From assembly GCF_013912375.1 (NCBI RefSeq), contig NZ_JACETV010000007.1:186001-250000 (forward strand): DNA of 64,000 nt, in the 5' to 3' direction. Below the pieces are notes generated by a model. The model did not search any database, was not told where the DNA came from, and worked only from the letters and a program-made list of their open reading frames with translations. The DNA is from Emticicia sp. BO119. GTDB lineage: Bacteria > Bacteroidota > Bacteroidia > Cytophagales > Spirosomataceae. Positions 20,127-42,177 of this stretch are shown here, in pieces. The position numbers were made by a program, and so were the translations under genes. Numbering within the stretch: the stretch's first letter is position 1; every line of letters begins with the position of its first letter.

Positions 20127-20798
20127 ATGTCGTCTCATCATATCGTAAGAGAAAAACAAGAACCTGCATTAATTATTGCCAATGGTGAAGCGTGCAGTTT
20201 CGAATTGTTGGGACAATTGCTGGAGTGGAGTCCTTTCGTTGTGGTCTTGGACCAGGCTATTTATCGGGTAATCGAACTGGGGATTAAAGTTGATGTACTT
20301 TTGGGCGATTTTGATGTTAACATTGACTTAACAGAAATCGGGAAAAGTCAATATCCAATCGAAATTATTCATACGCCTGATCAGGAAAAGACAGATTTAG
20401 AGAAAGCGTTCGATATGTTGATAAGTCGGGGTTTTCCCGCGGTCAATGTGGTGTGGGCAACAGGTCGTAGAGCTGACCATTCCATTACGAATATGACCAA
20501 TATTGTGCGTTACAAAAGTAAACTTCATATCGTTTTAATCGACGATTATTCAGTAATATACCCCTTACTACCTACCCCAAACGTATTTGAGAAGTGGTTT
20601 TCCAAAGGCTCACCTATCTCTTTGGTGCCAGTTGGCACGACAACAGGCATACGCACAGAGAATTTGAGGTATAGCCTTGATAATGAATCACTTATGCTCG
20701 GATATAGAGCTGGAAACAGCAATGAAGCCGCCGAGGACGGAATTGTGAGAATTTCGTATGTGGAAGGAGACTTATTATTGATGGAATGCCATGATTAA
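20127..20798 (+). CDS. thiN: Thiamine pyrophosphokinase
   Basis: This enzyme transfers pyrophosphate from ATP to thiamine to make the cofactor thiamine diphosphate. Its N-terminal half has 'ALIIANGEACSFELL' and the metal-binding 'VDVLLGDFDV' (GD-x-D). These are followed by 'HTPDQEKTDLEKAFDMLISR' with the conserved Asp/Lys-Thr-Asp-x-Glu block and 'WATGRRADHSITNM' (usually GGR-x-DH). The C-terminal beta domain includes 'SLVPVGTTTGIRTENLRYSL', normally 'GLKYPL' type. Length 223 is standard. The thiazole and pyrimidine pathway genes are not nearby, so it may serve thiamine salvage. Confidence 0.9.
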   Translation: MSSHHIVREKQEPALIIANGEACSFELLGQLLEWSPFVVVLDQAIYRVIELGIKVDVLLGDFDVNIDLTEIGKSQYPIEIIHTPDQEKTDLEKAFDMLISRGFPAVNVVWATGRRADHSITNMTNIVRYKSKLHIVLIDDYSVIYPLLPTPNVFEKWFSKGSPISLVPVGTTTGIRTENLRYSLDNESLMLGYRAGNSNEAAEDGIVRISYVEGDLLLMECHD

Positions 20799-20813: not shown

Positions 20814-21140
20814 TGTGGATAACTTTTTCAGAATTTTTCTTTTTTTCTGAAAATTATACATTTACATTTGTTAACCAAACAACCTTCCTAACCACTACGT
20901 AAATTTTTACTGGAAAAAACCATTAAAAAGTGTGCATAACTTTTGTGGATAACTTTTTAGTTTGATTTTTTCTACCTTCGCAGAAACTAACTGACTGATT
21001 ATTAGGTCTTAACATTTTCTTAATATTAGACTTTTTTACTGTTGCTAAAATGGTATAGAAGTACGGTTTTTTCAAGCCTTAAGATTTTGTTAATTTTACA
21101 TACTCGTTCTGAATATGAGCGTATGTTCGGGTGTGTATAA
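20814..21140 (+). promoter_or_regulatory. Cluster of four DnaA-box-like sites upstream of nrdA
   Basis: Two perfect DnaA boxes in the TGTGGATAA orientation lie at 20814-20822 and 20944-20952, both followed by CTTTTT. Two more fit TTATNCACA: TGTGCATAA at 20931-20939 and TGTGTATAA at 21132-21140. All four point the same way, in an AT-rich stretch of 518 bp without genes. A TACCTTCG -7-like element (20973-20980) places the third box near the -33 region of a possible nrdA promoter. The cluster is either a replication origin or a DnaA-controlled nrd promoter, as known in Escherichia coli. No dnaA gene is in the window. Confidence 0.6.
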
Positions 21141-21316: not shown

Positions 21317-23788
21317 ATGTATGTAATCAAACGAGACGGACGCCGCGAGTCGGTGAAGTTCGACAAAATTACTGCTCGCATTGAGCGTTTATGCTATGGC
21401 CTTGAGCCGGCATTTGTCCAACCCGTTGAAGTAGCCATGAAAGTTGTAGCAGGAATTTATGATGGAGTTAGTACTTCGGAATTAGATAATCTTGCTGCGG
21501 AAACCGCCGCTTCGATGACAACAAAGCACCCGGATTATGCTATTTTGGCTGCCCGGATTGCTATTTCTAACCTTCACAAAAACACTTTGAAGTCTTTTTC
21601 AGGGACAATGAAAATGCTGTATCAGTACGTTGACCCTAAAACTGCTCAAAATGCTTCATTAATTGCTAAAGAAACCTGGAAAGTGATTCAGAAACACGCG
21701 GCTACGCTTGATTCTGCTATTATCTATGACAGAGACTTTGGCTATGATTATTTTGGTTATAAAACTTTAGAAAAATCGTACTTGCTTAAGCTAAACAGCA
21801 AAATTGTTGAACGCCCACAACACATGCTGATGCGTGTGGCGGTAGGTATTCATGGCGATGACATTGACCGTGTGCTTGAAACCTACGAATTGCTTTCTGA
21901 ACGCTGGTTTACACATGCCACACCTACATTATTTAATGCAGGTACACCAAAACCACAGCTTTCGTCGTGCTTCTTATTGACGATGAAAGATGACAGTATC
22001 ACAGGTATTTATGATACCTTACGCCAGACTGCCCAGATTTCACAATCAGCCGGCGGTATCGGATTGGCAATCCATAATGTGCGTGCAACGGGCTCTTATA
22101 TTAAAGGTACTAATGGTACTTCTAATGGTATTGTGCCGATGCTTCGTGTTTTCAATGATACTGCCCGTTATGTGGATCAGGGCGGTGGAAAACGCAAAGG
22201 CTCGTTTGCTATCTATATCGAACCCTGGCATGCCGATATTTTTGAATTTTTAGAGTTAAAGAAAAATCACGGAAAGGAAGAACTACGTGCTCGCGATTTG
22301 TTCTACGCTCTCTGGATTTCTGATTTGTTCATGAAGCGCGTTGAGGCCAACGACACCTGGTCGTTGTTCTGCCCTAACGAAGCCCCTGGTCTGTCAGAAT
22401 GTTACGGAGAGGAATTTGAAAGATTGTATCAGAAATACGAGACCGAAGGTAAGGCTCGTAAAACAATCAAAGCTCAGGATCTATGGTTTGCTATCATGGA
22501 GTCGCAGGTAGAAACAGGTACACCATACATGTTATACAAAGATGCGGCTAACCAGAAATCAAATCAAAAGAACTTAGGTACAATCAAATCTTCAAACCTG
22601 TGTACAGAAATCATCGAATACACAGCACCAGACGAAGTGGCTGTTTGTAACCTCGCATCAATTGCATTACCTAAGTATATTGTAAAAGATGCAAAGTCGG
22701 GCTTTTTGAAATTTGATCATCAGAAATTGTATGAAGTTACGAAGGTTATCACCCGTAACTTAAATAAAGTAATTGATGTCAATTACTATCCTGTTCCCGA
22801 AGCAGAAAAAAGTAATCTTCGTCACCGCCCGATTGGCTTAGGTGTACAAGGATTAGCCGATGCGTTGATCGTACTAAGAATGCCTTTTGAATCTGACGAA
22901 GCCCGTCGATTGAACAAAGACATTTTCGAGACTATCTACTATGCTGCAATGGAAGCATCGATGGAAATGGCAGTAAAAGACGGACCTTATGCTACATGGG
23001 AGGGCTCTCCGATTTCGCAAGGTATCTTCCAGTTCGACATGTGGGGTGTTTCACCTGATTCAGGTCGTTGGAACTGGGAAGACCTTCGTGAGAAAGTGAA
23101 GCAGAATGGTGTGCGTAACTCGCTTTTAGTAGCTCCGATGCCAACGGCATCGACCAGCCAGATATTAGGCAATAACGAATGTTTCGAACCCTATACTTCA
23201 AACATCTATACCCGTCGTGTATTATCGGGTGAGTTTGTAGTAGTAAACAAACATTTGTTGAAAGACTTGGTAAAAATTGGTCTCTGGAACGATACCATGA
23301 AAAACAAGCTGATTGCTGCCAATGGCTCGGTACAGGCTATTGTTGAAATCCCGCAGAATCTGAAAGATATTTACAAAACTGCATGGGAAATCAAGCAAAA
23401 AACTATTATTGATATGGCTGCTGACCGTGGTGCTTACATCTGCCAGAGTCAGTCTTTGAATATCTTCATGGAAAACGCTAATTTCGGTAAACTTACTTCT
23501 ATGCACTTCTACGCATGGAAAGCAGGTTTGAAAACCGGTATGTATTACCTGAGAACCAAAGCCGCTACAGATGCTGTGAAATTCACAGTAGACAGACAAG
23601 CGATTGCAGAGGTAGTGCCGGCGGTTACAACCGTAGAGGAAAAACCATTGGATTATGCTAAATATGCCGAAGAACAAACGGCAAAAGCAACAGCCGCAGC
23701 GACTTTTAATAGTGATGACGAGTATCAATACGCCGCTATGCAATGCTCACTCGACGACCCTGAGGGTTGCGAGATGTGTGGCTCATAG
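21317..23788 (+). CDS. nrdA: Ribonucleoside-diphosphate reductase, class I alpha subunit
   Basis: NrdA reduces ribonucleoside diphosphates to deoxyribonucleotides with a radical supplied by NrdB. The 823-residue protein begins with an ATP-cone allosteric domain (about 1-95; '[20 protein letters not shown]'). Catalytic features are all visible: '[10 protein letters not shown]' (first redox Cys), '[11 protein letters not shown]' (Asn, thiyl Cys and Glu), '[12 protein letters not shown]' (second redox Cys), '[17 protein letters not shown]', and the radical-transfer Tyr pair in '[11 protein letters not shown]'. The C-terminus 'PEGCEMCGS' carries the thioredoxin-accessible CxxC. No nrdB gene follows; it must be elsewhere. 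The gene ends at a strong terminator. The upstream region carries the DnaA-box cluster. Confidence 0.97.
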
Positions 23789-41040: not shown

Positions 41041-42177
41041 ATGAAAAAAACTATTGCATTCATTCTTCTCATTGGGCTTATTAACACTGCATGGGCTCAT
41101 CAACTTCCACTCAATCCGAAACTCAGAATTCAGATAAATAAGAATGTTGAACTATTAGGGTTAGCTTATTTCGTTGGTTTTGAGGGGGTAGACATTGAAA
41201 CCAAAACTATTGATATAAAAGGCAAAAAGATGCCTAAAAAAGACTGGCACAACTACGGTTACTTTATCTACGAAAAGTATAAGCAATTTGCTACTAACGA
41301 AAGCCTGCTTAATAGTTTTACAGTAGCCGACCACCTATGGTTAGATTACCTCATTGCGCTTTTAGTCCAGGTAGAAGATTTCCCGAATGCAAGCCTGACA
41401 GAAGCAATTCCGGAGCAGTATTACATCAATTTCTCCAAAACAAAGAACCTGAAAGAAGCAAAGGAGAATGCAACAATCTTTTTAGGAGGGCTCAATAGCT
41501 TTTATACACAGATAAACTTCAATCAATACCTGTTGGATTCAAAAAAATACTATGACCAGGCTCTTGAAGAAGTAAAGCAAGGGTTACCCAAAACAGATTT
41601 CATTAGTACAATGGAAGGTTTCTATAAAAAGAGTTTTGATACCTATACCTTATTACCGAGCCTTACCATCCCCAAAGGCATGGGCTTTGGCGTACAATAT
41701 ACTTCAGGAGGGAATACCCATATATTCAATGTATTTGGTGCGCTTGATTTTCAGCAGTTTTTAAATGTCAATCAATTACAAATGGGCTTTACTGATAAAC
41801 AACGACTGAGAGAGTTAAGCGTGCATGAATTCGGCCATTCGTTTGTAAACCCAAGTGTAGACAAGTTGCCTGAGAAAATGATAACAGATACCGAACATTT
41901 GTTAGAACCCATGAGATTAGCCATGGCTAATCAAGGCTACAATACCTGGCGAGCGAGTTTGTATGAGCATTTTGTGAGGGCGGGTGAAATTATTATTGCA
42001 GAAAAAATAGGAGATAAGGCTGGGTCCGAAAATCTATTTAAGTACTATCTGGAAGAAAGGCAATTTAAGTATATTCCGTCTATTCTTATCGAACTAAGGA
42101 AATATGACAGCGGGCAGTATAAAACTTATGATAAAACAGTATTGGCAGCGATGAAAGAGATTGAGAAGAATAAATAG
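41041..42177 (+). CDS. Secreted zinc-metallopeptidase-like DUF4932 protein
   Basis: The 378-residue protein has a signal peptide (MKKTIAFILLIGLINTAWA) and, near residue 264, the zinc-binding motif 'SVHEFGHSFVNP' (HExxH) with possible downstream ligands in 'ITDTEHLLEPM'. The N-terminal part 'LNPKLRIQINKNVELLGLAY' and the central 'FGVQYTSGGNTHIFNVFGAL' match the DUF4932 family as I know it. It is predicted to act in the periplasm or outside. The CPBP intramembrane protease gene follows after 59 bp on the same strand. Substrate unknown. Confidence 0.82.
   Translation: MKKTIAFILLIGLINTAWAHQLPLNPKLRIQINKNVELLGLAYFVGFEGVDIETKTIDIKGKKMPKKDWHNYGYFIYEKYKQFATNESLLNSFTVADHLWLDYLIALLVQVEDFPNASLTEAIPEQYYINFSKTKNLKEAKENATIFLGGLNSFYTQINFNQYLLDSKKYYDQALEEVKQGLPKTDFISTMEGFYKKSFDTYTLLPSLTIPKGMGFGVQYTSGGNTHIFNVFGALDFQQFLNVNQLQMGFTDKQRLRELSVHEFGHSFVNPSVDKLPEKMITDTEHLLEPMRLAMANQGYNTWRASLYEHFVRAGEIIIAEKIGDKAGSENLFKYYLEERQFKYIPSILIELRKYDSGQYKTYDKTVLAAMKEIEKNK

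Follow-up and report, generated by a model that had tools for sequence, protein, structure and literature searches.

The draft genome of Emticicia sp. BO119 (Bacteroidota) is assembled as 6.57 Mb in 28 contigs, and its nearest named relatives are other Emticicia species. Our analysis centers on one locus of a 64-kb stretch of this DNA, referred to as the window. Here, a 518-bp gap separates two plus-strand genes. The upstream gene, thiN (20127–20798), encodes a thiamine diphosphokinase (TIGR01378 above its cut-off, Pfam TPK domains). The downstream gene, nrdA (21317–23788), encodes the catalytic subunit of a class I ribonucleotide reductase (RNR) with an N-terminal ATP-cone (TIGR02506, 740 bits; PF02867, PF00317 and PF03477). 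An earlier note on this DNA had described the gap as AT-rich and gene-free; this is the case, and profile searches recognised no genes in it. A search for structured RNA returned a single match to a microRNA family, which was rejected (22.6 bits, gathering score 249 bits). No phage relatives of the region were found at the sensitivity of the search used.

The gap contains four matches to the DnaA-box pattern TTATNCACA, all on the minus strand and exactly at the positions 20814, 20931, 20944 and 21132 given in the earlier note. The distal (20814–20822) and proximal (20944–20952) boxes are perfect copies of TTATCCACA, the consensus given in the available text of a review (PMC8203912), and read TGTGGATAA on the plus strand. 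They share the longer word TGTGGATAACTTTTT, as had been noted. The remaining boxes, TTATGCACA at 20931–20939 and TTATACACA at 21132–21140, match TTATNCACA only and read TGTGCATAA and TGTGTATAA on the plus strand. A fifth match in the window lies at 41502, and five is an ordinary count for 64 kb (3.8 expected). The grouping is what stands out: none of 300 dinucleotide shuffles of the window gave at least four same-strand matches within 327 bp, the maximum being two, in line with the note's view that a chance cluster is very unlikely. The four boxes are real and not a product of chance, and they place several DnaA-box matches upstream of a class I RNR gene, as in a DnaA-regulated nrd promoter. 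The nrdB gene is found on a different contig (C12), and nrdA and nrdB do not form one operon behind the boxes.

The genome contains one Bac_DnaA match. Domain IV of this protein aligns to 1j1v, which we take to be E. coli DnaA, with an E-value of 4e-22, and the GGRDHsTV motif is kept. Judged from this alignment, the host DnaA has an E. coli-type box-binding domain.

We compared the nrdA upstream regions of relatives, dropping three incomplete loci (L014, L039, L071) and five duplicates, which left 102 distinct sequences. In 19 of them, including our own, thiN lies directly before nrdA. This group spans at least six genera and includes Emticicia, Lacihabitans, Emticicia sp. CRIBPO and the genus labels g15, g20, g22, g23 and g26. 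All 19 sequences keep the proximal box as TGTGGAWAACTTYT with at most one mismatch (three have one), and the best matches on the reverse strand of the same sequences carry 2 to 5 mismatches. The other 83 nrdA upstreams contain TGTGGAWAACTTYT at this threshold in six cases, all from Hymenobacter (six of the eight in the set). A TGTGGAAAACTTCT-like word precedes nrdA in six of the eight Hymenobacter. TTATNCACA is absent from all 14 nrdA upstreams of the same family that lack the thiN arrangement (L022–L035).

Conservation is limited to two of the four boxes, those at 20814 and 20944. The proximal box reads TGTGGAAAA in Lacihabitans and in G002, a complete Emticicia chromosome of 5,177,490 bp. 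The distal box has the opposite orientation in L018, L020 and L021, and L043 has a degenerate version of it. The spacing between the two boxes is 125–130 bp in 11 of 12 Emticicia-like rows. The box at 20931 is exact in Emticicia sp. BO119 only; degenerate counterparts are present in three relatives (TGTGCACAA in L007, TGTGTACAA in L008 and TGTGCAAAA in L009), and it is unrecognisable in more distant relatives. The box at 21132 is unique to Emticicia sp. BO119 among the thiN-nrdA upstreams. Conservation before nrdA in relatives was a refuting check set in advance by the earlier note. It leaves the nrd-promoter reading standing on the 20814 and 20944 boxes, and the 20931 and 21132 boxes drop out.

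The proximal box also keeps a fixed distance to a promoter-like element. The main sigma factor of Bacteroidota is described as having a −7 element, TAnnTTTG, that covers positions −12 to −5 (available text of PMC7366714 and PMC9723704). In 17 of the 19 thiN-nrdA upstreams, a sequence TAnnTTT(G/A) is located 147–150 bp, or about 14 helical turns, from where the proximal box starts. The departures are L043, with the element at 160 bp, and L021, with only TTATTTTG at 148 bp. The distance from the proximal box to nrdA is variable in these sequences, ranging from 224 to 396 bp. When one representative per group is considered, four of six share the box-to-element offset within 2 bp. Out of 500 shuffles, none reached four groups at a common offset and two reached three. 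In Emticicia sp. BO119 the element is TAATTTTA (21091–21098, plus strand), 147 bp after the start of the proximal box. This short, degenerate motif is a candidate for the nrdA −7 element; if it is one, the transcript would start near 21103 and the proximal box would be centered near −155.

Other promoter-like features were considered. A sigma-70 scan of the region gave one weak site, under the shuffle mean. Letters 11–12 bp after the proximal box led us to consider a promoter closer by, in which the box would occupy the −33 position; we prefer the element at 147–150 bp because it keeps this spacing in different genera. A minor −7-like element, TACATTTG (TAnnTTTG; 20863–20870, plus strand), lies between the two conserved boxes, and 9 of the 12 Emticicia-like rows have the identical sequence there. 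Next to the distal box, the A+T-rich inverted repeat TTTTCAGAA / TTCTGAAAA (20825–20853) may be the thiN terminator; a similar repeat is visible in L018, L020 and L021. The stretch that begins at the proximal box and ends slightly beyond the −7 element has a second copy in G002, at 3266145–3266309 (L132:9846–10010). This copy is 165 bp long, 73% identical and contains a perfect box; it is far from nrdA, with no obvious large gene after it. Its presence suggests that the stretch constitutes one functional module.

When nrdB precedes nrdA, it is often nrdB that has boxes in front of it, as seen in several lineages. All seven Hymenobacter loci scored (L086, L100, L101, L106, L109, L110, L112) carry TTATCCACA or its reverse complement before nrdB. 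Five of them (L100, L101, L106, L109, L110) contain an inverted pair, TTATCCACA-N7-TGTGGATAA, 16 bp apart. Close box pairs are present before nrdB in Xanthocytophaga and Rhodocytophaga, two boxes in L242, and single or scattered boxes in Adhaeribacter, Rufibacter, Pontibacter and Marivirga. In family f25, TTATNCACA is found at −54 to −70 in 12 of 17 nrdB upstreams; in 10 of them, nnTCTTTG follows 39 bp after the start of the box. The word GTTAAAAACT occurs just upstream of the box in most f25 nrdB upstreams (L261, L263–L278) and is also present in box-less members.

TTATCCACA is present in 20 of 93 nrdB upstreams (shuffle mean 0.6), compared with 7 of 413 control upstreams, which come from one locus set without family f25. 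Of 61 nrdA upstreams without nrdB ahead, 21 contain it: the 19 of the thiN-nrdA group and 2 of the 42 others. Upstreams of the class II gene nrdJ are near background, with TTATCCACA in 2 of the 30 loci listed, of 78 genomes with a match. For an open test, 154 sequences were grouped into 91 clusters, and every 9-mer found in six or more of these was considered. Before class I RNR genes, TTATCCACA was the top-ranked 9-mer (22 of 91 clusters versus 7 of 413), with a Fisher p of 2.5e-12 that is uncorrected for word number or relatedness, kinship making such p-values overstate independence. Of the 93 nrdB upstreams, 48, or about half, lack even the wider DnaA-box consensus TTWTNCACA, and TTATCCACA is missing from 40 of the 42 nrdA upstreams outside the thiN group. 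The association of DnaA boxes with class I RNR genes is thus common, not universal. At Emticicia nrdB no conserved box is present, a degenerate one being seen in 3 of 11 sequences at differing places or with differing letters. A second DnaA target at the organism's own nrdB was rejected because the TGTGGAAAA there is not conserved in the genus. TGTGAAAAA before Algoriphagus nrdA was likewise set aside as support, as it was read as the 3' end of the nrdB coding sequence.

The repressor NrdR is a widespread regulator of RNR that adjusts nrd transcription. NrdR (TIGR00244) was not found in the genome of Emticicia sp. BO119 and scored above its cut-off in none of 148 Bacteroidota genomes, with two weak partial matches. 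It was above the cut-off in 9 of 14 control genomes and present in the E. coli control genome. Two further words are enriched before RNR genes, TGATTATCA (12 of 91 clusters versus 1 of 413) and TGTTAAAAA (17 of 91 versus 4 of 413). TGATTATCA as an RNR-specific operator was rejected, because it is a global motif in this genome: the palindrome YTGATTATYAR, matched by CTGATTATTAG at 20995–21005, has 225 sites versus 36 for a reversed control. The protein that binds TGATTATCA may act at nrd as well.

The alternative offered by the earlier note, a replication origin, is not borne out. TTATCCACA is not over-represented in the genome, with 63 sites versus 89 for a reversed-pattern control in the genome-wide scan that the note had proposed as a check. 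The densest group lies on another contig, about 2 kb from mnmG (C23:141849–147178; L002:4850–10179). It contains 7 sites in 5.3 kb, compared with 2 at nrdA, and five more TTATNCACA matches in the same span. Three boxes of the group have nearly the same spacings (9 and 94–96 bp) in G002, where the counterpart of the group is found at 5162480–5164999 and nrdA at 4.58 Mb. One TTATCCACA trio of the group lies inside a gene with M48/MORN domains, its spacing nearly kept in G002. The cumulative GC skew of G002, sampled in 40 stretches of 20 kb (15% of the chromosome of this relative, used in place of our own draft genome), reaches its lowest point near 0 Mb and its highest near 2.9 Mb. The minimum is about 24 kb from the mnmG box group and 0.6 Mb from nrdA, where the note had proposed to look for it; the box group itself is 0.58 Mb from nrdA. 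No TTATNCACA was found within the 10 kb examined around dnaA. The nrdA region is neither at the sampled skew minimum nor the densest box cluster. The sampling is coarse, but the two places are far apart, and the origin is probably in the vicinity of the mnmG box group, at a distance of about 0.6 Mb from nrdA.

Some boxes elsewhere in the genome are also shared with the stretches of G002 that were compared. A pair of TTATCCACA 20 bp apart is located upstream of an argD-like aminotransferase gene (L003:4213–4241; C6:70212–70240), whose product scores under the TIGR00707 cut-off. The pair is conserved in G002 at 155675/155695 and is a possible second DnaA target. The other shared intergenic TTATCCACA in these stretches is that at L002:4850. 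The remaining shared copies are in coding sequence: L160 (DinB-like gene), L167 and L196 (inside ORFs), L200 (rpsT) and the L002 trio (M48/MORN gene).

Taken together, the boxes are probably DnaA operator sites in the nrdA promoter region. The note's other alternative, a DnaA-controlled nrd promoter, is well supported by the conservation, by the fixed spacing to a −7-like element and by the recurrence at nrdB elsewhere. An origin of the chromosome, or a second active one, would account for the clustering of boxes in an A+T-rich, gene-free stretch. The denser group near mnmG, with its spacings shared by G002 and the sampled skew minimum close by, together with the recurrence of boxes before nrdB in other genera, makes this highly improbable. 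DnaA sites of the datA or DARS kind are known outside promoters, and two strong boxes away from oriC would fit such a reservoir or reactivation site placed beside nrdA by coincidence. We regard this as quite unlikely, since the boxes accompany RNR genes in differing contexts (nrdA after thiN; nrdB in Hymenobacter and f25) and keep fixed spacing to −7-like elements in both the thiN group and f25.

It is also conceivable that TGTGGATAACTTTTT is bound by another regulator, or is a −33 or UP-like part of a promoter, and that it resembles the DnaA box by coincidence. The extended word of Emticicia reaches past the 9-mer, TACTTTTC-like letters follow the proximal box by 11–12 bp in many rows and could place it on a −33 position, and the enrichment before RNR genes extends to TGATTATCA and TGTTAAAAA. 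The core common across lineages is the 9-mer, however, found in both orientations and often in pairs, with the later letters varying. The inversion of the distal box in three upstreams and the clustering of the same 9-mer at the candidate oriC of this genome also argue against a different regulator, which leaves this explanation unlikely, if somewhat less so than a reservoir site.

For the preferred reading, DnaA operators at the nrdA promoter, we propose the following mechanism. DnaA would bind the proximal and distal boxes, 125–130 bp apart, and the bound protein would contact RNA polymerase at the −7 element (21091–21098) or loop to it. Transcription of nrdA would follow the amount and nucleotide state of DnaA, which would couple the supply of dNTPs to the initiation of replication, as is the case for E. 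coli nrdAB. We lean with modest confidence towards activation over repression, because the best −7 candidate lies downstream of the conserved boxes and is not overlapped by them, and because the f25 box sits just upstream of the expected −33 position. Repression at high ATP-DnaA is compatible with the arrangement.

More tentatively, and with the odds somewhat against it, DnaA may be the main transcription regulator of class I RNR in much of the NrdR-less Bacteroidota. The boxes would stay with the RNR gene that leads the unit, nrdA alone in Emticicia and its kin and nrdB in nrdB-nrdA units, at a lineage-specific fixed promoter spacing. If this is true, replication start and the supply of DNA building blocks are both set by a single protein. 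A link conserved in several families would place the two processes under a shared regulator across a large phylum. It would also point to either an ancient origin or repeated evolution of the E. coli arrangement. In the open-access literature searched, we found no paper on a tie between DnaA and RNR in Bacteroidota, and no answer as to how dNTP synthesis is adjusted in this phylum without NrdR.

DnaA control of nrdAB in E. coli, on which the earlier note drew, is documented in the available text of the review PMC8203912. Three DnaA boxes are described there, and DnaA both activates and represses: low ATP-DnaA or ADP-DnaA activates, high ATP-DnaA represses. What Emticicia has in common with this system is the presence of 9-mer DnaA boxes before a class I RNR gene. 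It differs in that nrdA is apart from nrdB, which has no conserved box, and in that its boxes precede a −7 candidate of the Bacteroidota promoter consensus by about 147 and 277 bp. It also differs in NrdR, which would fill the same role of adjusting nrd transcription; NrdR is present in the E. coli control genome and was not found in Emticicia sp. BO119. The nrd genes of Caulobacter have been proposed as DnaA targets (available text of PMC8203912), a similar case of proposed RNR control outside the enterobacteria, in another phylum. The principle is the same as in E. coli; the spread and the geometry are new, and the phylum differs, as does the setting without NrdR.
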